Assembly (NCBI RefSeq): GCF_007750855.1
Contig: NZ_CP036291.1
Location: forward strand, 3,968,001-4,032,000
DNA length: 64,000 nucleotides
Direction of reading: 5' to 3'
From: Pirellulimonas nuda
GTDB taxonomy: Bacteria; Planctomycetota; Planctomycetia; Pirellulales; Lacipirellulaceae
A program made the translations under genes and the position numbers. Shown here one piece after another: positions 7,945 through 28,089 of this stretch (its first letter is position 1; each line of letters opens with the position of its first letter). Under the pieces are notes generated by a model, which had not been told where the DNA came from, ran no database searches, and saw nothing but the letters and a program-made list of their open reading frames with translations.

Positions 7945-8130
7945 GAGCGGTCTCTGGGTGAAGGTTCAAGGATCAAGGGTCAAGCTTCCACCGGCGAACG
8001 CCGGCCCGCCGACAAGAAATCGGCTGAAATGCCGGCTCGAAAGCCCTCGCGGCCCAGGCAGCGTTTGGCGCCCCATTTGCTTTCAGGCGTAAACTAGACG
8101 TGTTTCGAGCTGGGTCAATCATCAATTTGA

Positions 8131-8520
8131 TTACCTCCACCGAGGGTCCTCGCGGGAACGGTCGAGGGCGATCCGGCAAACCTCGAGCACCAGCATCGTC
8201 CGATCGCTGACAGACAAGCAGCCGAACATGGCCTGCAGGTGCGAACGCACCGTGGGCAACGCGATGTGCAGCTCGTTGGCGATGGCGCGGTCGCTACGCC
8301 CGTCCAACACACCCCGCAGCACCGCTTCTTGCCTCCGTGAGATGCCGGTCGCCCGTGTCACGCGACCCCACTCTACGGCGGTAAACAGGCTCGGCGGAGC
8401 CAGATGGTCGGATTCCGGCAGGCTCACGGAGGCTCCTGTAGCGATTTTCTTGAACATGGCGGCTCCCCAGCGCGTGATCGGATACCTGCTTATTGGCGAA
8501 CGCCCTGCAAAACCCGACAT
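8131..8520 (-). CDS. Solo LuxR-type HTH protein (NarL/FixJ-like DNA-binding domain)
   Basis: A 129-residue protein whose C-terminal 65 residues form a LuxR-type HTH: SRRQEAVLRGVLDGRSDRAI, then ANELHIALPTVRSHLQAMF. The core VLxGxSDRAIANEL...TVRSHLQ matches the GerE/LuxR recognition helix. There is no receiver or ligand-binding domain; the first 55 residues are short and featureless, so the mode of control is unknown. An alternative ATG at 8457 would give 108 residues and leave the HTH intact. It is divergent from the ECF sigma factor gene (138 bp apart) and upstream of the PEP-CTERM run on its own strand, so it could regulate either; this is inference. Confidence 0.8.
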   Translation of the reverse strand: MSGFAGRSPISRYPITRWGAAMFKKIATGASVSLPESDHLAPPSLFTAVEWGRVTRATGISRRQEAVLRGVLDGRSDRAIANELHIALPTVRSHLQAMFGCLSVSDRTMLVLEVCRIALDRSREDPRWR

Positions 8521-8658
8521 GGATTCCTAGAAAGAGGCGCGGGGTCTATGGGCGATCAGCGCTCGAATTGAGTTGCACCCCCCGATCGAGGTGGCTACGC
8601 TACGGCGGTGCGGCCGCCGCGGGGAGGCGGCCCTACAGGCTCCGATAGGTAATCGCCC

Positions 8659-9270
8659 ATGCCGGGGGCTTCCGATGATCGTCCGCTGGCTTGGCTCGAC
8701 GGCCTTCCGGTAGAAGACCGCGACGCGGCGCCGCTCATCTACGATGCTTGTTTCGATAGGCTGGTCGCCACCGCTCGGCGGGCCCTGGCCGCGACGCCGC
8801 GGCGCGACATCGACGAAGAAGACATCGCCAGCAGCGTGCTGTCTAGTTTTTTTCGCGGGATCGACGACGGACGCTTCAGCGGCCAGCTCTCTCGGGCCCA
8901 ACTGTGGGGGCTGCTGCTCACGATCGCACGCCGCAAGGTAGCGAGGCTGCACCGCAGGCGATTCACGCTGCGACGCGGCGGGGGCAAAGAACGGGGCGAG
9001 TGCGACCTTGGCCCGGCAGACGCCTCCGGCACGATTCTCGATCGGCTGGCAGCGGTCGAGCGGTGCCCGATGACGCTCGCTGCGGTCCGCGAGACGCTGC
9101 GGATGCTGCTCGATGGGCTGGCCGACCCGCTCGCAGAGCGGGTATTGATGCTACGCCTGGCGGGGGAGACCCACGGCGCTATCGCCACGCACCTGGGCTG
9201 CGCTGAGCGGACCGTTGAACGAAAGATGAAGAAGGTGCAACACGTTTGGTTGATCGTCAATCGGGAGTGA
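8659..9270 (+). CDS. ECF-type RNA polymerase sigma factor (planctomycete kinase-linked group)
   Basis: A 203-residue protein. Residues about 20-100 match sigma region 2 (IDEEDIASSVLSSFFRGI, then LWGLLLTIARRKVARLHRR), and about 140-200 match region 4 with its HTH (LRLAGETHGAIATHLGCAER, then TVERKMKK). This is the ECF group common in planctomycetes, where genes for Hanks-type kinases typically follow. Here the next frame begins at a GTG whose last two bases are shared with this gene's TGA (GTGA at 9267-9270), the usual translational coupling, but the kinase is broken (see next entry). The sigma factor itself looks intact. No anti-sigma gene is seen. Confidence 0.9.
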   Translation: MPGASDDRPLAWLDGLPVEDRDAAPLIYDACFDRLVATARRALAATPRRDIDEEDIASSVLSSFFRGIDDGRFSGQLSRAQLWGLLLTIARRKVARLHRRRFTLRRGGGKERGECDLGPADASGTILDRLAAVERCPMTLAAVRETLRMLLDGLADPLAERVLMLRLAGETHGAIATHLGCAERTVERKMKKVQHVWLIVNRE

Positions 9271-18222: not shown

Positions 18223-20163
18223 CTACGGGACGGGTCGGGCGTCGAGATCGTCTGCCTCTTGCGGCTTGAGGCCCGCCGCCTCAACCGGGGTAGACGTCGC
18301 CGCCTTCCCGGCGCCGCGTTGCATGAGGCGTTTCAGGTCGCCCAGGTGCGTCTGGTAGACGTCGCGTGGCGTGCAATCGTGCTGCTTGCAAAGCGCAACC
18401 GCCATGCCAACGGCCTCCCCCATCATGCCGCAGGTGCGCATCACGCGCACCGCTCCCAGGGCTTCATGGTTGACGCTGATATTGCGGCCCGCCATGAACA
18501 GGTTGCCGACGTTGCGGCTGTACAGGCAGCGGTAGGGCGCCCAGTAGGGGCCGGTGTAGGGGCCGAACTCGGCCTTCGAGATGAACGGGTCGGACCCGCC
18601 TTGGTCAAACTTGGGGTCGGCGAGGTGGAGGTCCAGCTTCCAGGTGCACGGGAAGCAGGCGTCCGGGTAGGGGGTCGCCTGGCGAAAATCCTCCCCCGAG
18701 AGAACGACGTCGCCCAGCAACCGACGCGACTCTCGTTTACCGGCAACGAACGCGGCCCACTTGAGGCGGTGCGTGGGGTACTTCTGGTCAACGTTCTTGA
18801 GCGTGTCCCACGCGCCGTACATCGCCCGCAGGTTCTGGTCGCGGACCTCTTCCATGTCGAGGATCGGGTCCTTGTCGAACCCGCTCTCCCAGAACCAGCC
18901 CCCAAGCTTGGCGAGGTCGGGCTTCGCTTGGTCGCCGTCCCGTCCCGGGAAGGGTCGGCTGCTCAGGTCCACGGCCCACGGGCAGCGGGGAAACGGCGCC
19001 GGCTCGTCCGAGGGGGTGAAGTTGAGCGACAGCGGGTCGTCGTCCTCGCACAGGCACTGGAGCTGGTGCTCGTTCTTTTCAACCGCGTCCACGTTCCAGA
19101 GATTGCTGGCGCCGAGGTGCCCCGTCTGGGTTATCTCGTAGTCGGCGCCCACGAGCGCGCCGAGCACGGCGTCGCCCGTGGAGTCGAGGAACCACCTGCC
19201 GCGGACCCGCGTGCGCTTCCCGGATCGCGTGTCCTGGGAGACGACCGATAGGATGCGGCCCTCGGGCGAGACGCTGGCGGCGTTGACGCGCTGCTCGAGC
19301 ATCAGCGTCAGGTTGGGCTCGGCCCGGGCCAGGTCGAGCTTCCGCTGGTCGTCGTAGACAGCGGCGTCTTTGGCGTTGCCGTCGGCCGGGCCCTTGTCGC
19401 GGACCAGCTCAGCCACGACGTCGCCGATACGCGGGTAGGGTTCGTGGTTGGTCTTCCCTTCGGGCCAGACGCGCACCTCGCTGCTGCCGTTGCCCCCCAA
19501 GACGGGCCGATCTTGGATGAGCGCCACGCGAACGCCCAATCGGGCCGCGGTGATCGCGGCGCTCGTGCCGGCAATGCCCCCGCCGACGACCACCAGGTCG
19601 TACTCCCCGCCATCGGCGGGCGCCGCGTCCCAGCCCAGGTGCTTGCTGCGGAGCTTGGCGAGCGCCTCGCCGCCATCCGGCGGGATGTAACCCGTGTCCT
19701 TGGCCAACAAGATCGCGTCGCACCGCCCCTCGAAGCCGGTCAGGTCGTGCAGCACCACCCTCACGTCCTTGCTCAACTGCACCTCCCCACCATCCTGCCA
19801 ATGCCACTGGGCCCCTTCGGTACCGAACGTCGTCTCAAGCGGCTGCCCATTGAGCACGACTTGGAACTTCCCAGGCGCGCCCGGGGCGCTCCAGGGGGCG
19901 ACCCAATCGCGGGTCCGGACCCACACGCGGTAGACGCCGGAGCGCGGCAACGTGGTGCTTGTCACCGCGTCGGGAACCGGTTCGCCCAGCCCGTGGGCAA
20001 GCACGTAGGGCGAGCCCATCAGGTCCATGAACTGCTGGTCCACCAGCCACCCGCCAAGCTCAGGGAACGCCTCGGTCTCGAGGAGCACTAATTCTTGCGA
20101 CTGTGCCGGGTGGGCAAGAAACAGCGAGCCTAAAACGGTCGCTAGTGCGGCAAGTATTCGCAT
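18223..20163 (-). CDS. Secreted FAD-dependent oxidoreductase with N-terminal beta-sandwich domain
   Basis: A 646-residue protein from ATG 20163, chosen because a signal peptide starts there (MRILAALATVLGSLFLAHPA, cleavage near QSQE). Residues about 25-185 are a carbohydrate-binding-like beta domain (GVYRVWVRTRDWVAPWSAPG). The FAD domain then begins with YDLVVVGGGIAGTSAAITAA (dinucleotide Gly at 194, 196, 199) and continues with RPVLGGNGSSEVRVWPEG. Later GNLFMAGRNISVNHEALGAV marks the end of the FAD fold (FAD_oxidored-type). Such planctomycete and Bacteroidetes proteins sit beside sulfatases and fucosidases, and a role in modifying a sugar of algal polysaccharide is plausible but not established. 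Upstream of the fucosidase gene, same strand. The donor is unknown. Confidence 0.86.
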   Translation of the reverse strand: MRILAALATVLGSLFLAHPAQSQELVLLETEAFPELGGWLVDQQFMDLMGSPYVLAHGLGEPVPDAVTSTTLPRSGVYRVWVRTRDWVAPWSAPGAPGKFQVVLNGQPLETTFGTEGAQWHWQDGGEVQLSKDVRVVLHDLTGFEGRCDAILLAKDTGYIPPDGGEALAKLRSKHLGWDAAPADGGEYDLVVVGGGIAGTSAAITAARLGVRVALIQDRPVLGGNGSSEVRVWPEGKTNHEPYPRIGDVVAELVRDKGPADGNAKDAAVYDDQRKLDLARAEPNLTLMLEQRVNAASVSPEGRILSVVSQDTRSGKRTRVRGRWFLDSTGDAVLGALVGADYEITQTGHLGASNLWNVDAVEKNEHQLQCLCEDDDPLSLNFTPSDEPAPFPRCPWAVDLSSRPFPGRDGDQAKPDLAKLGGWFWESGFDKDPILDMEEVRDQNLRAMYGAWDTLKNVDQKYPTHRLKWAAFVAGKRESRRLLGDVVLSGEDFRQATPYPDACFPCTWKLDLHLADPKFDQGGSDPFISKAEFGPYTGPYWAPYRCLYSRNVGNLFMAGRNISVNHEALGAVRVMRTCGMMGEAVGMAVALCKQHDCTPRDVYQTHLGDLKRLMQRGAGKAATSTPVEAAGLKPQEADDLDARPVP

Positions 20164-20427
20164 GCAAAGTTCCTCAAGGGCGTGGCTCACGCCGCCGGAT
20201 GTGTTCGAAACGAGGCTCAAACTCTGGACTAGCCAGCACGCGGCGGACCGCCGCCGCTACTGGTGGGCGCGCACGCGTCCGGACGCCCCGGGCGACCGAC
20301 GCACAGATTCTACCATCGGCCGGCCGGGCCAGCACGGCGCCCCGAAACGCGCTTACCTCCGCTGGCGGTACGGCCCCTACGCGGAGCCGCCGCCGGCCCG
20401 TCAATTCTACACCTTGACGTACACTAC

Positions 20428-20444
20428 TTGATGGGTACGATCAA
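20428..20444 (+). promoter_or_regulatory. Inverted repeat TTGAT-N7-ATCAA upstream of norZ
   Basis: Half-sites identical to the FNR/CRP-superfamily half-site (TTGAT...ATCAA) used by NO and oxygen sensors of the Dnr/NnrR type, but the spacer is 7 bp, not the canonical 4. It lies 66-82 nt upstream of the norZ start. The altered spacing means this may be a different regulator's operator or chance. Confidence 0.3.
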
Positions 20445-20446
20445 TC

Positions 20447-20462
20447 TGCATCTCGACATGCA
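20447..20462 (+). promoter_or_regulatory. Inverted repeat TGCAT-N6-ATGCA upstream of norZ
   Basis: A perfect 5-bp dyad just 3 bp downstream of the previous one and 48-63 nt before the norZ ATG. The arms resemble the TGCAT/ATGCA core of NsrR (Rrf2) sites, where the two arms are separated by 5 bp, not 6. Its position in front of an NO reductase makes it a candidate operator; no Rrf2 gene is in the window. Confidence 0.3.
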
Positions 20463-20509
20463 CGTTTTGTCGGGGGTCCGAACAGTCGACTGAGTGAGGA
20501 GCTACGGTC

Positions 20510-22900
20510 ATGCGGTACAGAGGGTTGTGGATCGGATTCGCGAGCGTGGTTGTGCTCTCTTTCGCGGTGCTGGGGTACTACGGGTTCGAGATCTACCGCC
20601 TCGCCCCCCCGATCCCCGAGCGGGTCGCCACGCCCGAGGGCAACGTGCTCTGGACCGGCCAGGACATCAAGGACGGGCAGAACGTGTGGCAGTCGATCGG
20701 CGGCCAACAGCTCGGCAGCATCTGGGGGCACGGCGCCTACGTGGCGCCCGACTGGTCAGCCGATTGGCTGCACCGCGAGTGCCTGTGGCTGCTGAACCAC
20801 TGGTCGCAGCAGACACACGGCCAGCCCTTCGCCGAGCTTGATCCCGAGACGCGGGCGCCGCTGCTGGTCCGGCTCCGTGAGGAGCTCCGCACCAATACCT
20901 ACGATCCAGAGACCGGCGACACGCTGGTGTCGGCCGACCGCGCGCAGGCGGCCAAGGCCATCGGCGGCTACTACGCCGCCCTGTTTGGGGACGCCGCCCA
21001 GTTCCCAGACGACGTGAAGGACCTGGCCGACGGGCGGATGACGCCGCCGGAGCTCCGCGGCGCCTACGCGATCCCGGCCAACACCATCCGCGACCCAGAG
21101 CGGCAAGAGAAGATGAACGCCTTCTTCTTCTGGACCGCTTGGGCGTGCGCTGCCGAGCGTCCCCAGGAGGGCGGAGGCGCGCCGATCGACCTGGAGGCTG
21201 CCGCAACGTCGGCCGGCGGCCCCGTCACGTACACCAACAACTGGCCCTCGGAGCACCTGGTCGGCAACACGCCCAGCGGGCCGATCATCGTGTGGTCGGT
21301 GCTAAGCTTTGTGCTGCTGCTGGCCGGCATCGGCGCCCTGGCTTGGTACTACGCCGTCATCAATCACCACGCGGGAGAGGACGAACCTGACCTCCCCCGG
21401 CACGACCCGCTGCTGGCGCTGACGCCAACCCCCTCGATGAAGGCGACCGAGAAGTACTTCTGGGTCGTCATCGCGTTGATCTTGGTGCAGGTAGGCCTAG
21501 GGGCCGTTACGGCGCACTACGGCGTCGAGGGCGAAGGCTTCTACGGCATCCCGCTGGCCGAGTGGCTCCCGTACTCGGTCACACGCACCTGGCACACGCA
21601 GCTCGCGGTCTTCTGGATCGCCACCGCGTGGCTGGCGACCGGGCTGTTCATCGCCCCGGCCGTTTCCGGCCACGAGCCGCGATGGCAACGCGCCGGGGTC
21701 AACCTGCTGTTCGTCTGCCTGCTGGCGATCGTGGTGGGGTCGTTGTTCGGGACCTGGTACGGCACCCGCCAGCAGATGGGGTACGAAATGAACTTCTGGT
21801 TCGGGCACCAGGGGTACGAGTACGTTGAGCTGGGCCGCTTCTGGCAGTACTTCCTGCTGATCGGGCTGTTCTTGTGGCTGGGTCTGATGTGCCGCGCCTT
21901 GTGGCCCGCCTTCCGACAACCGGGCGAGCACAAGCACCTGCTAGCGATGTTCGTGGTCGCATCGGCGGCCATCGCGTTGTTCTACGCCGCCGGCATCATG
22001 TGGCATCGTCAAACCAACCTGGCCATCGCCGAGTACTGGCGGTGGTGGGTGGTCCACCTGTGGGTCGAGGGCTTCTTTGAGGTATTCGCCACGGTGGTGA
22101 TCGCCTTCCTGTTTACCAGGATGGGCCTGCTGCGGACCGCCACCGCCACGGCCGCCGTGCTCTTCTCCAGCACCATCTTCCTGTTCGGCGGCATCATCGG
22201 CACTTTCCACCACCTGTACTTCACCGGCACGCCGACGCCCATCCTGGCGCTCGGGGCGACGTTCAGCGCGCTGGAGGTCGTGCCGCTGGTGCTGATCGGC
22301 TTCGAAGCCTACGAGAACCTTTCGCTCGCCCGCGCCCGCAAGTGGGTGGCCGCCTACAAGTGGCCCATCTACTTCTTCGTCGCTGTCGCGTTCTGGAACC
22401 TGGTGGGCGCCGGGCTGTTCGGCTTCCTGATCAATCCCCCCATCGCGCTGTACTACATGCAGGGGCTCAACACCACGGCCGTGCACGGGCACACGGCGTT
22501 GTTCGGCGTGTACGGCATGCTGGGCATCGGGCTGACGCTGTTCTGCCTGAAGGGCTTGGCGGCGCGGAACGCCTGGCGCACCCGGACGCTGGCCCTCAGC
22601 TTCTGGGCGATGAACATCGGCCTGGCCCTGATGGTGCTGATCTCGGTGCTGCCGGTCGGGCTGCTGCAGACCTGGGCGAGCGTCGACCGCGGACTATGGT
22701 ACGCCCGCTCCGCTGAGTTCATGCAGTCCGACGGGATGGACACGCTCCGCTGGCTGCGCGTGGTCGGAGACACGATCTTTGCATTGGGCATCGTCGGTCT
22801 TGGCTGGTTTGTGGTCGGCCTGAAAACGGGCTGGTCTATCACGCCCGAAGAAGACGCGATCTTTGAGACCTCGGCCCTGGCGCCGGCCGCCGCAGACTAG
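20510..22900 (+). CDS. norZ: Quinol-dependent nitric oxide reductase, single-subunit qNOR
   Basis: A 796-residue membrane protein that reduces 2 NO to N2O with electrons from quinol. The N-terminal anchor (residues 6-29) and periplasmic domain (about 30-265, with GQDIKDGQNVWQSIGGQQLG) are fused to the NorB-type catalytic core, which is the qNOR layout. Heme and FeB ligands are visible: H362 in RTWHTQLAVFW, H516 with E520 and E524 in VVHLWVEGFFEV, H567-H568 in GTFHHLYFTG, and H659/H661 in AVHGHTALFGVYG. There is a strong Shine-Dalgarno (GAGGAG). The gene begins an operon with a DGC-domain protein (39 bp gap) and a nitronate monooxygenase (13 bp). Length is normal (about 760-800) and no key residue is missing. 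It may serve NO detoxification rather than denitrification, since no other denitrification gene is nearby. Confidence 0.95.
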   Translation: MRYRGLWIGFASVVVLSFAVLGYYGFEIYRLAPPIPERVATPEGNVLWTGQDIKDGQNVWQSIGGQQLGSIWGHGAYVAPDWSADWLHRECLWLLNHWSQQTHGQPFAELDPETRAPLLVRLREELRTNTYDPETGDTLVSADRAQAAKAIGGYYAALFGDAAQFPDDVKDLADGRMTPPELRGAYAIPANTIRDPERQEKMNAFFFWTAWACAAERPQEGGGAPIDLEAAATSAGGPVTYTNNWPSEHLVGNTPSGPIIVWSVLSFVLLLAGIGALAWYYAVINHHAGEDEPDLPRHDPLLALTPTPSMKATEKYFWVVIALILVQVGLGAVTAHYGVEGEGFYGIPLAEWLPYSVTRTWHTQLAVFWIATAWLATGLFIAPAVSGHEPRWQRAGVNLLFVCLLAIVVGSLFGTWYGTRQQMGYEMNFWFGHQGYEYVELGRFWQYFLLIGLFLWLGLMCRALWPAFRQPGEHKHLLAMFVVASAAIALFYAAGIMWHRQTNLAIAEYWRWWVVHLWVEGFFEVFATVVIAFLFTRMGLLRTATATAAVLFSSTIFLFGGIIGTFHHLYFTGTPTPILALGATFSALEVVPLVLIGFEAYENLSLARARKWVAAYKWPIYFFVAVAFWNLVGAGLFGFLINPPIALYYMQGLNTTAVHGHTALFGVYGMLGIGLTLFCLKGLAARNAWRTRTLALSFWAMNIGLALMVLISVLPVGLLQTWASVDRGLWYARSAEFMQSDGMDTLRWLRVVGDTIFALGIVGLGWFVVGLKTGWSITPEEDAIFETSALAPAAAD

Positions 22901-22939
22901 CAGACACCACCGAACGACTTGGCCCGAAACCCCGCCGTT

Positions 22940-23356
22940 ATGCAAAATCCGCCGAAACCGCCGCTGCTGTTCGCCTGCTCTGGGTGCTCCAACGCCGGGC
23001 AGCTCGCAGACCAACTGGCCCGTGAGCTCGACCGGCGCGGGATCGCCGAGATGTCGTGCCTGGCCGGGCTGGGCGCGTCGAAGCCGCATTTCCTCAAGAA
23101 GCTCTCGCAACGAGAGGTCTGGGTCATCGACGGCTGCGCGATCGCGTGCGGCCTCGGCGTGTTCGCGGTTTTGGGAGAACACACCGACGTCCACATCCGC
23201 CTGCACGAGCTGGGGGTCCGCAAGAACGCGCCCCTGCCCGCCGGGCGGCAGCTCGAAGAGCTGATCGACGCGGCGCTGCGTCAAGCGGCGCAGCAGAAGC
23301 AGGAGCACACGACCGCGCGAGCGGGCAACGAGGATCGCAACCACACCAACCCTTAG
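22940..23356 (+). CDS. DGC-domain putative zinc-binding protein
   Basis: A 138-residue protein from ATG 22940 (an upstream TTG at 22919 is less likely). Cys pattern: FACSGCSNAGQLADQLAREL with C13 and C16, C40 in EMSCLAGLGA, the family motif D64-G65-C66 in VWVIDGCAIACG, and C70. These are the conserved residues of the DGC family, predicted metal-binding. A basic and glutamine-rich C-terminal tail is specific to this protein. It lies between norZ and the nitronate monooxygenase in a tight operon, which suggests a role in NO or nitro-compound handling, perhaps metal or electron delivery; this is inference, as the family's function is not known. Confidence 0.85.
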   Translation: MQNPPKPPLLFACSGCSNAGQLADQLARELDRRGIAEMSCLAGLGASKPHFLKKLSQREVWVIDGCAIACGLGVFAVLGEHTDVHIRLHELGVRKNAPLPAGRQLEELIDAALRQAAQQKQEHTTARAGNEDRNHTNP

Positions 23357-23369
23357 GAGAGACGCCGGC

Positions 23370-24830
23370 ATGGAACTAGCACGCGAACCGATCATTATTC
23401 AGGGTGGGATGGGGGTTGCCGTGTCCGCTTGGCCACTGGCCAAGGCGGTTGCGCAAACCGGCCAACTGGGCGTGGTGTCGGGCACGGCGCTCGACGTGGT
23501 GTTGGCGCGCCGGCTGCAACGGGGCGACCCGGGCGGCCACCTCCGGCGGGCCCTCGCCGAGTTCCCCCTGCCGGACATCGCCCAACGCGTCCTCGATCGC
23601 TACTTCGTGCCGGGAGGAACGCCGGCAGACGCGCCGTTCGTTCCGCTCAGGCTGCTAGACGAGTCCCCCTCGCAGGACCAGCAGGAGCTGATCGTCGTGG
23701 CCAACTTTGTGGAGGTGTACCTGGCCAAGGAAGACCACGACGGGCTGGTGGGCATCAACTACCTAGAGAAGATCCAGCTCCCCACGCTCCCCTCGTTGTT
23801 CGGCGCTCTGATTGCTGGGGTCGACTACGTGCTGATGGGGGCCGGGATCCCGACGGCTATCCCCGGCATCCTCGATCGGCTCTGCGAGGGCAAGCCCGTG
23901 GAGCTCGCCCTCAGGGTAGAAGGCGCCGAGCGGGACGACCGCTTCCGCTGCTGCTTCGACCCCGACACGTTCACCGGGGGCCAGACGCCGTGGCTCCGGC
24001 GGCCCAAGTTCTTGCCGATCGTCGCGTCGGCGACGCTCGCCACGATGCTGACCCGCAAGGCCAGCGGCGCGGTCGACGGCTTTGTTGTCGAGGGCCCCAC
24101 GGCCGGCGGACACAATGCGCCCCCCCGTGGGCAGCCGAGCTTCAACAACCGTGGAGAACCGGTGTACGGAGAACGCGACGTTGTCGACTTGGCGGCGATG
24201 CGCTCGCTGGGGCGCCCGTTCTGGCTAGCGGGGTCGTACGGCTCTCCGGAGCGGGTGGTCGACGCCCTAGAGGCAGGCGCCGCGGGCGTTCAGGTGGGGA
24301 CCGCGTTTGCGTTCTGCAACGAGTCGGGGATGAGTGAATCGATCCGCCGCGCAGTGATCCAGGGGAGCAAGTCGGGCGCGTTGGACGTGTGCACCGACCC
24401 GGTCGCGTCGCCGACCGGCTTCCCGTTCAAGGTGCTGTCGCTGCTGGGCAGCCTGTCGGAAGCCGCGGCGTACCAACTCCGCAAGCGGCGTTGCGACCTG
24501 GGGTTCCTCCGTCAGGCCTTCCGCAAACCCAATGGCGGCCTGGGCTGGCGTTGCCCGGCCGAGCCCGTCGCCGCCTACGTGCACAAGGGGGGCCAACAAG
24601 CGGACACGACCGGCCGGAAGTGCGTATGCAATGCCCTGATGGCCAACGTCGGCCTGGGGCAGGTCCGCGCCGATGGCGGCCGCGAGCTCCCGCTGGTCAC
24701 CAGCGGCGACGAGGTCCGGCATCTGGCGCAGTTCCTAAGAGGCTCCGACGCCTTGGCGTACTCCGCTCGCGATGTGGTGAGCTACCTGCTGTCGCTTGTA
24801 GGGGCGCGCCGAACCTCGGTCCCCTGCTGA
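23370..24830 (+). CDS. Nitronate monooxygenase family protein (NMO / 2-nitropropane dioxygenase-like)
   Basis: A 486-residue cytoplasmic protein, a TIM-barrel FMN enzyme. The start is fixed by AGGAGA 9-14 nt before the ATG. The N-terminus EPIIIQGGMGVAVSAWPLAK is the classic NMO opening; TGQLGVVSGTALDV follows. FVVEGPTAGGHNAPPRG is the phosphate-binding/HNAP-type element with the catalytic-type His, and AGAAGVQVGTAFAFCNESGM closes the barrel. It is longer than the 320-380 residue class I/II enzymes: a segment near 60-110 (FPLPDIAQRVLDRYFVPGG) and a Cys-containing C-terminal extension (GGLGWRCPAEPVAAYV, GRKCVCNALMANVGLGQ) resemble the long PfaD-like or NMO-like branch. Third gene of the norZ operon. 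It probably oxidises nitronates or related toxic compounds; the exact substrate is uncertain. Confidence 0.84.
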   Translation: MELAREPIIIQGGMGVAVSAWPLAKAVAQTGQLGVVSGTALDVVLARRLQRGDPGGHLRRALAEFPLPDIAQRVLDRYFVPGGTPADAPFVPLRLLDESPSQDQQELIVVANFVEVYLAKEDHDGLVGINYLEKIQLPTLPSLFGALIAGVDYVLMGAGIPTAIPGILDRLCEGKPVELALRVEGAERDDRFRCCFDPDTFTGGQTPWLRRPKFLPIVASATLATMLTRKASGAVDGFVVEGPTAGGHNAPPRGQPSFNNRGEPVYGERDVVDLAAMRSLGRPFWLAGSYGSPERVVDALEAGAAGVQVGTAFAFCNESGMSESIRRAVIQGSKSGALDVCTDPVASPTGFPFKVLSLLGSLSEAAAYQLRKRRCDLGFLRQAFRKPNGGLGWRCPAEPVAAYVHKGGQQADTTGRKCVCNALMANVGLGQVRADGGRELPLVTSGDEVRHLAQFLRGSDALAYSARDVVSYLLSLVGARRTSVPC

Positions 24831-24904
24831 GGGCGGCGCGCATCCGCACGCGAGCCGCGCGCACCGTTGCGGTCGGGGCAGCCGACCAAGGCCGGCGTGG
24901 GGGG

Positions 24905-27900
24905 CTACTCGAGCGTGATCGTCTCGTCCAGGTTCAGGATCAGGTGGGCTACCGCCGTGTAGGCGGCGTGCTCCGAGGCGTCGAGGGATTGATCGCGCGG
25001 CGACTGGCCGTGGGCGAGCAACGCCAGTGCGTCCGTTTGGCGCTCGGCGAAGTGCCCCTTGAAGAAGCCGAGGTTGTCCCGCAACACCTGCAGGGTCGCG
25101 GGAGACGCGTGGTAGGCGGTAGCCAAGCGGTAGCCGTACGCCAGCCGCTCGTCGGGCGATCGGCCCGACTCGGTCATCATCCGCTGGGCGAGGCGGCGCG
25201 CCGCCTCGATGAACGTTTCGTCGTTCATCAACGCCAGCGCTTGCAGCGGGGTGTTGGTCAGGCGCCGCCGCACGTTGCAGACCTCGCGTCCCGAAGCGTC
25301 GAAGATCGTCTGGAGCGGGGGATTCACGGCACGCCTCCAGTAGGTGTACATGCTCTTGCGATAGAGATTGTCTCCCGTGTCCTGCACGTAGCGGTCGCTG
25401 GCCGACGCGCCGACCGCTTCCCACAGCCCGCCGGGCTGGTACGGCTTGACCGGCGGTCCGCCGACGTCCGTCCGCAGCAGGCCCGCGGCGCCGAGCGCGA
25501 CGTCGCGCACCGCGAAGCCATCGATGCGGTACCTGGGCCCCCGCGCCAGCAGCCGGTTCTCCGGGTCTTTCTCGTGCAACGCCGGGGTCACGCGAGACGA
25601 CTGCCGGAACACGCTGCTGCGGGCGATCAGCCGGTAGAACTGCTTAACGTCCCAACCAGAGTCGATGAACTCCACCGCCAGCCAGTCGAGTAGTTCCGGG
25701 TGGCTGGGGCGTTCGCCCTGCGAACCGAAGTCCTCGGTCGTCTTCACCAACCCGATGCCGAACATGTGCTGCCACATCCGGTTCGCAACCACCCGGGCCG
25801 TGATGGGGTTGTCGCGGCTGACGATCCACTCGGCGAGCTCCAGGCGGTCGCGGGGCGCCTCGTGGTCCCCCAACAGCGCCGCGATCACCGTGCGCGGCAA
25901 CGCCTCGGACAGGTCTGGCGCGTCGTACTGGCCGCGGCTCAACAAGTAGGTGGGTCGCCGGTCGTCGCGTTCGTTCATCACCATCACCGGCACCCTAGCG
26001 AACCCCGCGCGGTCGATCGCCCGGCTCGCCCCGTCGTGCTCGCCGATTGCCGCCAGCAGCGGCGGATCGATCTTCGCGTAGTGGTCGTCTACCTCCTTCC
26101 GCTGCGCGTCGGTCCACGTGGCCTGCGGCTTCCGCAGCGTCTGGTTGAGCGACTTGGTCAGCGTCATCGACATCGGCAGCGTCGAGAAGTACGCCCGTAG
26201 CCGGCCGATGGTGTGATTGGCGTAGATCGAGTTCTGCTCGATCACGAGCGTGAGGGTCGCCTGAACGTCCTTCTTGATCGGCTCTTTGAGTTGCAGTTGC
26301 AGCCTCACCGGTCGGGAGGGATCGGCCCCGTTGACGGCCCAGCCGCTCTTAGCGTCGCTGTCGATGGCTTTCGACGCGGGGTAGCCGGGCTGCTCGTAGT
26401 CTGCCTGGACCCGCGCGATCTCGAGCTTCGTCCCCGCCGGCTCGCCCTGGTAGGCGACACGCGCCGACAGGTTGGTCACCACAAAGTTGCCGTTGTCGCC
26501 GGCGCCCAGGGTTGGGTTCTGGCCCAGGTGGCTGCTGGGGAGCACGTCGATCCGCAGGCCCGTGATCGCCTCGCCGGCGGTGTTGACGTCGATCTCGTAA
26601 GCAACCGCCTGGCTGCCATACCTGCCGAACTCGTAGCTCCCATCGGGCATGGGGGCCGCCTCTTCACGGCGCTCGCCGCGGACCACCGTCACCCGCTTTG
26701 CCGGTTCGACCGGGAACCACTCGTTCTTGTCCGAGGGCCCGTCCGCGGCCATCCGGCGGACCCACGCGGCGCGCCGGTCCGGCAAGCCCTTGCGCGCCGA
26801 CTCAAGCCCCCGCTCCGCGGCGGCCAAACGATCGGCCAGCGGCGCTGGGATCGGCCGCAGCGGCGAGCCGCTCTGCATCAACGGATCCGCGTCGACCCCC
26901 TTGCCGATGCCCCGCTCGCCGATGTTGTCGAAGTACGCGTACAACTGGTAGAACTCGCGCTGCGAGATAGGGTCGTACTTGTGGTCGTGACAACGCGCGC
27001 AGCCAGTGGTGAGTCCGAGCCACACCGCGGAGGTGGTTTCGACCCGGTCGATCACGTTCTCAACAAAGAACTCTTCTTCCAGCGCGCCCCCCTCGCCGTT
27101 CTGCCGGTGGTTGCGGTTGAAGGCGGTCGCCAGACGCTGGCTGGGGGTGGGGTTGGGGAGCATGTCGCCCGCCAACTGCTCGATCGTGAACCGATCGAAC
27201 GGCATGTTGTCTCGGTACGCGGCGATCACCCAGTCGCGCCAGGGCCAGTTCGACCGCGGGGCGTCGTTCTGGTAGCCGTCCGAATCGGCGAAGCGCGACG
27301 CGTCGAGCCAAACCAGCGTCATCCGTTCTGCGTAGGCGTCGGACGCCAGCAGCCGATCGACCAGCCGCTCGTAGGCGCCCGGCTCCTCGTCTGCCAGAAA
27401 CTGGTCCGTCTCGGCCGGCGTGGGCGCGAGCCCGGTGAGCGCCAGAGTGGCCCGCCGCGCGAGCACCTCGGGCTCGGCCTCGGGAGAGATCGCGAGCCCC
27501 TCCTGCGCAAGCCTGGCTTGGATAAACGCGTCGATCGGGGTGCGAGTGGGTCTGCCGTCGAGTTCTTCGGGCGTTGGCGTTGGCGGCCTCTGCGGCGGTA
27601 GGTAGGCCCAGTGAGACTGGTACTCGGCGCCCTCGGCGATCCACTGCCGCAGCAAGCCTTTCTGTGCTTCGCTGAGCGACCGGTTGGAGCCGACCGGCGG
27701 CATTGGGTGCTCGTTGCTGAAGACCCGCGCCACCAGCTCGCTCTCGTCGGGCCTCCCGGGCCGGATCGCCGCCGCGGCCTGCCCGGCCGTGTGCAGGGCC
27801 AGGCCTGCTTGCCGGGCCCCCGCGTCGGGGCCGTGGCAGTGGAAGCAGTTCTCCGACAGGATCGGACGGATGTCGCGGTTAAACGAAAGCCTGGCCTGCG

Positions 27901-28003
27901 CCGCCGCCGGCGACGGCGCCAGCGCGCCCATCCACGACACACAAAGTGCCGCGACGATGCAGCAACCCGCGGGAGCGTCTTGCTTGTTTGGCGATTGCTT
28001 CAT
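24905..28003 (-). CDS. Secreted planctomycete cytochrome / DUF1549-DUF1553 protein (locus B)
   Basis: A 1032-residue protein from ATG 28003, at which a signal peptide begins (MKQSPNKQDAPAGCCIVAAL). PSCyt1 heme motif CFHCH is C53, C56, H57; then a PSCyt2/DUF1549 region (AERMTLVWLDASRFADSDGY) with TGCARCHDHKYDPI near residue 334, and a PSD1/DUF1553 C-terminus (ITARVVANRMWQHMFGIGLV, NTPLQALALMNDETFIEAAR). About residues 475-610 are an insert with discoidin/galactose-binding-like features (SKAIDSDAKSGWAVNG, VRLQLQLKEPI), placed between the two domains, unlike locus A. It is downstream of its DUF1501 partner (86 bp), the reverse order of loci A and C. No frame damage. Confidence 0.92.
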   Translation of the reverse strand: MKQSPNKQDAPAGCCIVAALCVSWMGALAPSPAAAQARLSFNRDIRPILSENCFHCHGPDAGARQAGLALHTAGQAAAAIRPGRPDESELVARVFSNEHPMPPVGSNRSLSEAQKGLLRQWIAEGAEYQSHWAYLPPQRPPTPTPEELDGRPTRTPIDAFIQARLAQEGLAISPEAEPEVLARRATLALTGLAPTPAETDQFLADEEPGAYERLVDRLLASDAYAERMTLVWLDASRFADSDGYQNDAPRSNWPWRDWVIAAYRDNMPFDRFTIEQLAGDMLPNPTPSQRLATAFNRNHRQNGEGGALEEEFFVENVIDRVETTSAVWLGLTTGCARCHDHKYDPISQREFYQLYAYFDNIGERGIGKGVDADPLMQSGSPLRPIPAPLADRLAAAERGLESARKGLPDRRAAWVRRMAADGPSDKNEWFPVEPAKRVTVVRGERREEAAPMPDGSYEFGRYGSQAVAYEIDVNTAGEAITGLRIDVLPSSHLGQNPTLGAGDNGNFVVTNLSARVAYQGEPAGTKLEIARVQADYEQPGYPASKAIDSDAKSGWAVNGADPSRPVRLQLQLKEPIKKDVQATLTLVIEQNSIYANHTIGRLRAYFSTLPMSMTLTKSLNQTLRKPQATWTDAQRKEVDDHYAKIDPPLLAAIGEHDGASRAIDRAGFARVPVMVMNERDDRRPTYLLSRGQYDAPDLSEALPRTVIAALLGDHEAPRDRLELAEWIVSRDNPITARVVANRMWQHMFGIGLVKTTEDFGSQGERPSHPELLDWLAVEFIDSGWDVKQFYRLIARSSVFRQSSRVTPALHEKDPENRLLARGPRYRIDGFAVRDVALGAAGLLRTDVGGPPVKPYQPGGLWEAVGASASDRYVQDTGDNLYRKSMYTYWRRAVNPPLQTIFDASGREVCNVRRRLTNTPLQALALMNDETFIEAARRLAQRMMTESGRSPDERLAYGYRLATAYHASPATLQVLRDNLGFFKGHFAERQTDALALLAHGQSPRDQSLDASEHAAYTAVAHLILNLDETITLE

Positions 28004-28089
28004 GACCAACGATTGCGGGTTCTTGCGGACGCTGGTTGCTTGTCGGGCCCGACGCGCCAGTGTCGGGCGCACGCCTGGGCGCCACCGCG

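Follow-up and report, generated by a model that had tools for sequence, protein, structure and literature searches.

Within a stretch of 64,000 nucleotides of the planctomycete Pirellulimonas nuda (contig NZ_CP036291.1, positions 3,968,001–4,032,000; the whole stretch is referred to as the window), the gene norZ, encoding a quinol-type nitric oxide (NO) reductase, heads an operon of three genes, and the labels of the other two need changing: the small DGC-family protein is AnvM-like, and the putative nitronate monooxygenase (NMO) is probably FabX-like. That the three genes share the nitrogen-oxide sphere can be held with high confidence, and that the third encodes a FabX-like iron-sulfur flavoprotein with moderate to high confidence; confidence is moderate to low both for a sensor role of the DGC protein, possibly as the sensor partner of a regulator, and for a role of the flavoprotein in lipid synthesis. 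The reading that combines NorZ, a DGC sensor and a FabX-like lipid enzyme in one kit is put forward as a serious but tentative possibility. Through this trio, a connection of nitric-oxide respiration with redox sensing and with oxygen-free metabolism becomes testable.

The three genes follow each other on the forward strand with gaps of 39 bp (norZ–DGC) and 13 bp (DGC–NMO), and open reading frames (ORFs), strand, gaps and Pfam domains agree with the tight series seen in the first-pass annotation of this DNA. The 39-bp gap is counted from the ATG at 22940; the mechanical ORF of the DGC gene opens at a TTG at 22919. GA-rich stretches resembling ribosome sites precede norZ and the NMO gene. Both flanking genes (18223–20220 and 24905–28072) lie on the reverse strand, and the three genes therefore form an isolated unit; a consensus scan found no terminator-like site in either gap, and the sole sigma-70-like match within 20100–25000 (1 versus 0.3 expected) is upstream of norZ. 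The operon is real, and its genes are presumably co-transcribed. The first-pass annotation had also named a quinol NO reductase, with which domain architecture and structure match agree: a NorC-like domain and the NorB core are joined in a single chain (PF22085, NorB cytochrome-c-like, residues 36–220; PF00115, COX1, residues 313–756), and the best solved relative, NorB with 761 amino acids, is homologous over nearly the full length (E 1.1e-244, residues 3–774). It is established that NorZ enzymes take electrons from the quinol pool to reduce NO to N2O.

The third protein matches the Pfam NMO family (PF03060) with 60.4 bits (cut-off 28; best stretch 216–331), which places it in the NMO superfamily; it has 486 residues, whereas class I nitronate monooxygenases have about 330–360. 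Its structural model is of high confidence (mean predicted local distance difference test, pLDDT, 90.9; predicted template modelling score 0.92), and a Foldseek search with it returned H. pylori FabX (HP0773; PDB 7e1q, 9lt5) at rank 1 (E 4.9e-15). In VIA-align, FabX entries reached Z scores of 30.2–32.2 (the best with 332 residues, root mean square deviation 2.8, model range 3–476) and FabK 27.4–29.1, while the entries listed under the titles nitronate monooxygenase, nitroalkane or 2-nitropropane enzyme reached 20.1–27.8 (T. maritima "nitroalkan dioxygenase" 27.8; PA1024 26.9–27.0; nitroalkane-oxidase/NMO entries 20.1–24.3); entries titled NMO thus rank below FabX and most FabK.

Relatives of the protein with 51–74% identity occur in many phyla (80 of 143 loci kept). 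Throughout alignment A2, which comprises 48 proteins (the window protein and 47 of the 80 loci; stops close to the ends of their ranges excluded L062 and L068), Cys375, Cys395, Cys418, Cys420 and His248 are invariant, in keeping with the initial description of an unusually long NMO with a cysteine-containing C-terminal extension. The family profile matched 19 solved chains, in all of which the best stretch ends at or before profile position 352 and leaves the C-terminal part uncovered. FabX itself is described as an NMO-family flavoprotein with a catalytic His182 and an atypical [4Fe-4S] cluster on Cys300, Cys304, Cys308 and Cys320 within residues 267–363 (PMC8626469, available part). Both proteins share the FMN TIM barrel of the NMO family, the histidine upon it at the catalytic position (His182/His248) and a cysteine-bearing C-terminal subdomain; unlike the window protein, FabX has 363 residues, shares 23% identity in the structural alignment, and spaces its cysteines as C-x3-C-x3-C-x11-C instead of C-x19-C-x22-C-x-C. 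An hhalign comparison with the pair of FabX and its C. necator homolog (probability 99.4, E 1.4e-21) set Cys395 opposite Cys304 and Cys418 opposite Cys320, as counted from the alignment. That homolog is encoded on plasmid pHG1 of C. necator H16; it is a true FabX relative of nearly full length (392 residues, E 4.3e-45). Its cluster region holds four cysteines, three of them in register, and its identity to the window protein is 22% across the part that aligns. Its gene directly precedes a DGC gene in a denitrification region with nos, NnrS, hemerythrin, Crp/Fnr and nar genes, as in the window an NMO-family gene adjoins a DGC gene, but the stretch read contains no norZ. Members of two distinct NMO-superfamily branches, both showing FabX features, are hence encoded beside a DGC gene. 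FabX as best fold match, together with the invariant histidine and the four cysteines, makes an acyl-thioester oxidoreductase likelier; judging from model and fold, the protein is probably an FMN/[4Fe-4S] enzyme of this kind rather than a nitronate detoxifier. This suggests that the annotation "nitronate monooxygenase" is wrong for a large, cross-phylum group of proteins sharing the four invariant cysteines, whose place is near FabX and UfaA.

Enzymes of the FA_desaturase family need O2. The window genome (6.62 Mb, one contig) has four matches to this family over the cut-off and none over the cut-off for FabA (21 bits, cut-off 238), and an O2-independent enzyme for unsaturated lipids would therefore be useful in an NO/nitrate operon. 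FabX is reported to make unsaturated fatty acids (PMC8626469, PMC11300592), and its relative NGO1024 (UfaA) of N. gonorrhoeae to be essential for their anaerobic synthesis, with the electron acceptor unknown (PMC11300592); UfaA is named in connection with anaerobic unsaturated fatty acids also in PMC4549310. The same gonococcal gene, as "npd, 2-nitropropane dioxygenase-like", was induced 9.6-fold anaerobically, and its authors remarked that the Npd reaction consumes O2 (PMC3032703); for all of these reports the statements concern the parts available. O2-independent synthesis of unsaturated lipids by the window flavoprotein is plausible, and were it to work with NorZ, this would bear on the acceptor for oxygen-free unsaturated fatty acid synthesis.

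The second protein matches PF08859 with 83.7 bits (cut-off 27). Alignment A1 (27 proteins) shows Met38, Cys40, Gly43, Gly45, Asp64, Gly65, Cys66 and Cys70 (window numbering) to be invariant, and with them the DGC motif, D64 G65 C66 (27/27); that the protein is cysteine-rich and of the DGC family was recognized from the outset. By sequence it is a homolog of P. aeruginosa AnvM (PA3880), with which it shares the motifs CSGCS, MSC and DGCxxxC as well as the counterpart of AnvM Cys44, and it belongs to the nitrogen-oxide/anaerobic type. A characterized homolog exists, then, and the proposal that the DGC protein would be a new component has to be dropped. According to the available part of its description (PMC6650552), Cys44 of AnvM exceeds all other cysteines detected in that proteome in its sensitivity to oxidation, the transcript increases about 100-fold anaerobically, AnvM binds Anr and MvfR, and anvM and narXL have no common transcript. 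A further similarity is that anvM lies beside narL, narX and other nar genes. The two differ in that the proteins are 35% identical, that the window gene follows norZ whereas anvM is transcribed apart from narXL, and that Anr and MvfR are the partners reported for AnvM, while the regulators met with here belong to the Rrf2 family.

On plasmids, tblastn detected DGC genes in 24 of 72,556 records. One of these is annotated as anvM, beside narL, narX, narK and narG on a P. aeruginosa plasmid record. Eight plasmid loci were opened (one of the Klebsiella records among them): apart from pHG1, where DGC follows the FabX homolog, an Ideonella record has NnrS and hemerythrin genes followed by DGC, two U32 genes and an SCP2 gene, with ytfE and norR near, while in C. 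metallidurans DGC and a nosZ-like gene are about 2.9 kb apart; on the Shewanella stretch narL is about 8 kb away. Viral contigs scanned for DGC relatives yielded none, and the DGC protein had no match up to E 1 among solved structures. One literature collection contained no paper combining "DGC domain" and "nitric oxide reductase", and the available part of the main text of Rodionov 2005 (PMC1274295) names neither DGC nor nitronate or nitropropane enzymes.

In a DGC tree of 41 rows, a nitrogen-oxide context (13 rows) and a context of ArsR, ArsP_1 permease and thioredoxin-like genes (20 rows) are separated by a single change over the 33 labelled rows. The motif follows this division: CSGC is present in all 11 scorable rows of the nitrogen-oxide side and CSGA or CSGG in all 19 of the other, so that the second cysteine goes with the former (11/11) and is absent from the latter (0/19). 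The row of L012 in this tree is a 91-residue ORF in the wrong frame with an artefactually long branch (A1 has the right frame), that of L015 is a truncated ORF, L016 is absent, and L018, from the same record as L020, was excluded from the trees. DGC genes of the CSGA/CSGG clade (L102–L105, L107, L109–L112, L144–L151) accompany genes for ArsR, for an ArsP_1 permease and for a thioredoxin-like protein of small size, apparently as part of a metalloid or thiol module. At L114 (5033–6040, forward strand) two DGC stretches occur in one chain.

The DGC gene is patchily distributed: it is present in 9 of the 97 relatives, in 16 of 294 genomes sampled across the phylum and in 23 of 296 across the order, which together make 37 different genomes. 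Its surroundings were examined in all 37, the window included, and scored with 18 exemplar families; several contigs are short, which leaves part of the neighbors out of the scores. A nitrogen-oxide gene lies within about 6 kb of DGC in 10 of the 37 (counting G034, whose DGC is broken), the companions being norZ, the Fe-S repair gene RIC, Rrf2/NsrR-like regulators or nitrate reductases. norZ is within 3.3 kb in four of the ten (G000, G021, G034, G285) and RIC within 3.2 kb in six (G021, G024, G034, G285, G474, G534); NMO is within 6 kb in G000, G023 and G024. An ArsP-permease or thioredoxin-like context was found in 23 genomes and neither context in 5, G534 having one DGC of each kind. The orders seen include norZ-RIC-DGC-Rrf2 (L014), MobB-NMO/Rrf2-DGC-RIC beside nap-like genes (L015), narGH-DGC followed at some distance by RIC-norZ (L100), and, in Bythopirellula (L020), nitrate reductase/Rrf2-NMO-unknown-hemerythrin-unknown-radical SAM-DGC-MobB. 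L016 has the order Rrf2/norZ-RIC-broken DGC; there the DGC gene (8380–8738, reverse strand) is in pieces with stops and has intact relatives in other genomes. Two genes between NMO and DGC in L020 (9467–10795 and 11451–11990) have no Pfam or NCBIfam match at E 1e-5. Among the 97 relatives, NMO is present in 6 of 7 genomes with an N-type (nitrogen-oxide type) DGC versus 16 of 90 others (Fisher 4.5e-4), and in 6 of 9 when all DGC genomes are taken (p 0.004), both values uncorrected for kinship. In the phylum sample (294 genomes; DGC 16, norZ 51, NMO 38) the only significant pair is norZ-NMO (12 versus 6.6 expected, p 0.016).

RIC, NorR, Rrf2 or hemerythrin genes accompany norZ within 3 kb at 15 of 20 other planctomycete loci, as is the case in norZ/NsrR-type NO detoxification regulons. 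The window genome differs in that the companions of norZ in its unit are DGC and the FabX-like gene. Its RIC gene and an NsrR-like Rrf2 gene are found elsewhere, together at a distance of 57–59 kb, where their neighbor is a NapA-like gene (871.6 bits, under the model cut-off of 904; L165, positions 4,046,001–4,062,000, the window ending at 4,032,000). The genome has the same nitrogen-oxide kit, split over two places. A nitrite reductase was seen only as a sub-threshold NirK match (50 bits, cut-off 296), NirS not having been searched for.

As for the flavoprotein, nitrogen-oxide genes occur within 6 kb at 16 of 82 NMO loci, two of them (L084, L098) on weak labels. On the NMO tree this label changes 6 times, compared with 14.9 times after shuffling, and none of 500 shuffles came as low. 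The clade of the window protein (SH-aLRT 93, not starred) carries it in all of its 7 members, and NnrS is the neighbor in a second clade, which has four. At L015, L020, L021, L022 and L024 an Rrf2 gene is within 63 bp of the NMO gene. The rest of the family is not linked to nitrogen oxides, and a role in NO metabolism would therefore be a recruitment. A B12-binding radical SAM protein with weak HpnJ/BchE-like matches is encoded near NMO at L020–L023, L031, L032 and L097, including a Myxococcales contig with two copies.

A natural fusion bears on the function of the DGC protein. At L012 (genome G049, 8023–9006, reverse strand) a single ORF of 327 aa, beside NarGH-like genes, encodes an Rrf2 domain (62–188; 49.7 bits, Pfam cut-off 30) and a DGC domain (208–299; 88 bits, Pfam cut-off 27), with no in-frame ATG, GTG or TTG in codons 188–214. 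All 7 stand-alone Rrf2 proteins compared, including the one from the window genome, have three cysteine positions in common (CPLG, LC-LH and PLC). The Rrf2 half of the fusion lacks all three, which suggests that DGC is a sensor acting with a transcription factor; in the simplest reading the DGC half would supply the sensing site. The fused gene may also be decaying, or an assembly error. If the first reading is right, DGC, a family of largely unknown function, gains a concrete role as sensor partner of Rrf2.

We therefore favor, tentatively, the following scenario. One transcript would provide a kit for nitrogen-oxide and anaerobic growth, in which NorZ reduces NO and the DGC protein, as a cytoplasmic cysteine-cluster protein of the AnvM type, would sense NO or the redox state and act with a transcription factor; judging from the neighborhoods and the fusion, its partner in planctomycetes would be the NsrR-like Rrf2 protein, encoded about 57 kb away here. 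The enzyme with the FabX fold would contain FMN and, probably, a [4Fe-4S] cluster held by its four invariant cysteines, and would most likely oxidize an acyl thioester, allowing unsaturated lipids to be made without O2 when the O2-dependent desaturases stop. A bolder version, in which the AnvM-type DGC protein is a detachable NO/redox sensor of Rrf2 and the four-cysteine flavoprotein feeds electrons from desaturation into the quinone pool drained by NorZ, we consider quite improbable; if true, NO (or nitrate) respiration would replace O2 as the electron sink of unsaturated lipid synthesis and would account for the acceptor of UfaA.

A number of observations weigh against this scenario. Taken strictly, the order norZ-DGC-NMO is not conserved outside this strain, occurring in 1 of the 37 DGC-bearing planctomycete genomes, that of the window, although the looser neighborhood recurs as described; in 27 of the 37 no nitrogen-oxide gene is near DGC, the context being mostly ArsP/thioredoxin-like, and 4 of the 8 plasmid loci (Klebsiella, Shewanella and two haloarchaea) have no such gene adjoining DGC. 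Neither DGC nor NMO is within 3 kb of norZ at any of the 20 other planctomycete norZ loci, and in the phylum sample the co-occurrence of DGC with norZ is not significant (4 versus 2.8 expected), nor is that of DGC with NMO (3 versus 2.1). As to the flavoprotein, 66 of the 82 NMO loci have no nitrogen-oxide gene within 6 kb, only two of the four cysteines align with those of FabX and their spacing differs, no fatty-acid family is among the 25 commonest of 141 Pfam families matched beside NMO relatives (137 of 140 listed genes used), and FabX uses O2 as acceptor in vitro (PMC8626469, PMC11300592, parts available). With respect to DGC, the Rrf2 fusion was seen once, in one assembly, an author correction for duplicated images, including the two-hybrid Fig. 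2I, applies to the AnvM paper, and the AlphaFold2 model (pLDDT 51.2, only two sequences in the alignment) is unusable.

The first-pass annotation had interpreted the unit as an NO-reductase operon in which the NMO destroys toxic nitronates arising from NO and the DGC protein assists in removing NO by handling metal or heme. Its first half stands, since the neighborhoods of the relatives place both partners of norZ in the nitrogen-oxide/anaerobic sphere; the nitronate half, together with this role of the DGC protein, is very improbable. It is true that PF03060 is matched over the cut-off in a tight series with norZ, and that other NMO-family genes have been reported in anaerobic or denitrification gene sets (PMC3032703, PMC8191878, as far as available), but fold, catalytic histidine and four-cysteine subdomain all point to FabX, whose Z scores exceed those of every NMO-titled entry listed, and most NMO loci lack nitrogen-oxide genes; furthermore, oxidation of nitronates needs O2 (PMC3032703), and the gonococcal gene is said to serve unsaturated fatty acid synthesis (PMC11300592), again according to the parts available. 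It is also conceivable, if unlikely, that the NMO is a housekeeping oxidoreductase caught by an NO-regulated promoter and has no function in common with norZ and DGC. The occurrence of its family in many phyla and mostly unrelated contexts would fit, as would the restriction of the gene order to the window genome, but not the clustering of nitrogen-oxide contexts on the NMO tree, complete in the clade of the window protein, or the co-occurrence of NMO with N-type DGC.

Somewhat less unlikely, though still doubtful, is a repair module, in which the DGC protein aids RIC in di-iron repair and carries iron or thiols to NO-damaged Fe-S proteins, the NMO included. RIC is the commonest close neighbor of N-type DGC, the order norZ-RIC-DGC is seen in L014 and L016, and DGC is rich in cysteines; in the window, however, RIC is not adjacent, AnvM dissolved from inclusion bodies contained no significant Zn, Cu or Fe (PMC6650552, available part), the reports on AnvM favor regulation, and the Rrf2-DGC fusion fits the sensing proposed in our scenario better.

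Table 1. Features of the norZ operon (positions in the window)
Feature	Position	Strand	Description	Basis
norZ	20510..22900	+	Single-subunit quinol-type nitric oxide reductase, 796 aa	PF00115, PF22085
DGC gene	22940..23356	+	AnvM (CSGCS) type, 138 aa from ATG	PF08859, alignment A1, tree
NMO-family gene	23370..24830	+	Flavoprotein with FabX-like fold, 486 aa	PF03060, model, fold comparisons
Cys40 codon of DGC	23057..23059	+	Equals AnvM Cys44; invariant 27/27	Position counted in AnvM row of A1
His248 codon of NMO	24111..24113	+	Aligned with FabX catalytic His182; FMN itself not seen	HMMER, position counted from alignment
C-terminal subdomain of NMO	24378..24827	+	Four invariant cysteines (codons 24492, 24552, 24621, 24627); probable [4Fe-4S] or Zn site	
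15-bp element CTACACCTTGACGTA	20407..20421	+	Over -35-like box of norZ; tentative Rrf2/NsrR-like operator	
Sigma-70-like promoter	20414..20441	+	Upstream of norZ	Consensus match

Regarding regulation, a palindromic operator, CTRCACC-N4-GGTGYAG, was considered and rejected, as it has 15 matches in the window versus 9.4 expected. The element CTACACCTTGACGTA is a candidate operator and a lead only: it occurs once in the window versus 0.17 expected at up to 2 mismatches, a weak figure for a pattern picked by eye post hoc. Among 173 loci, its only exact match is in the norZ/Rrf2 intergenic region of L016, from another species.

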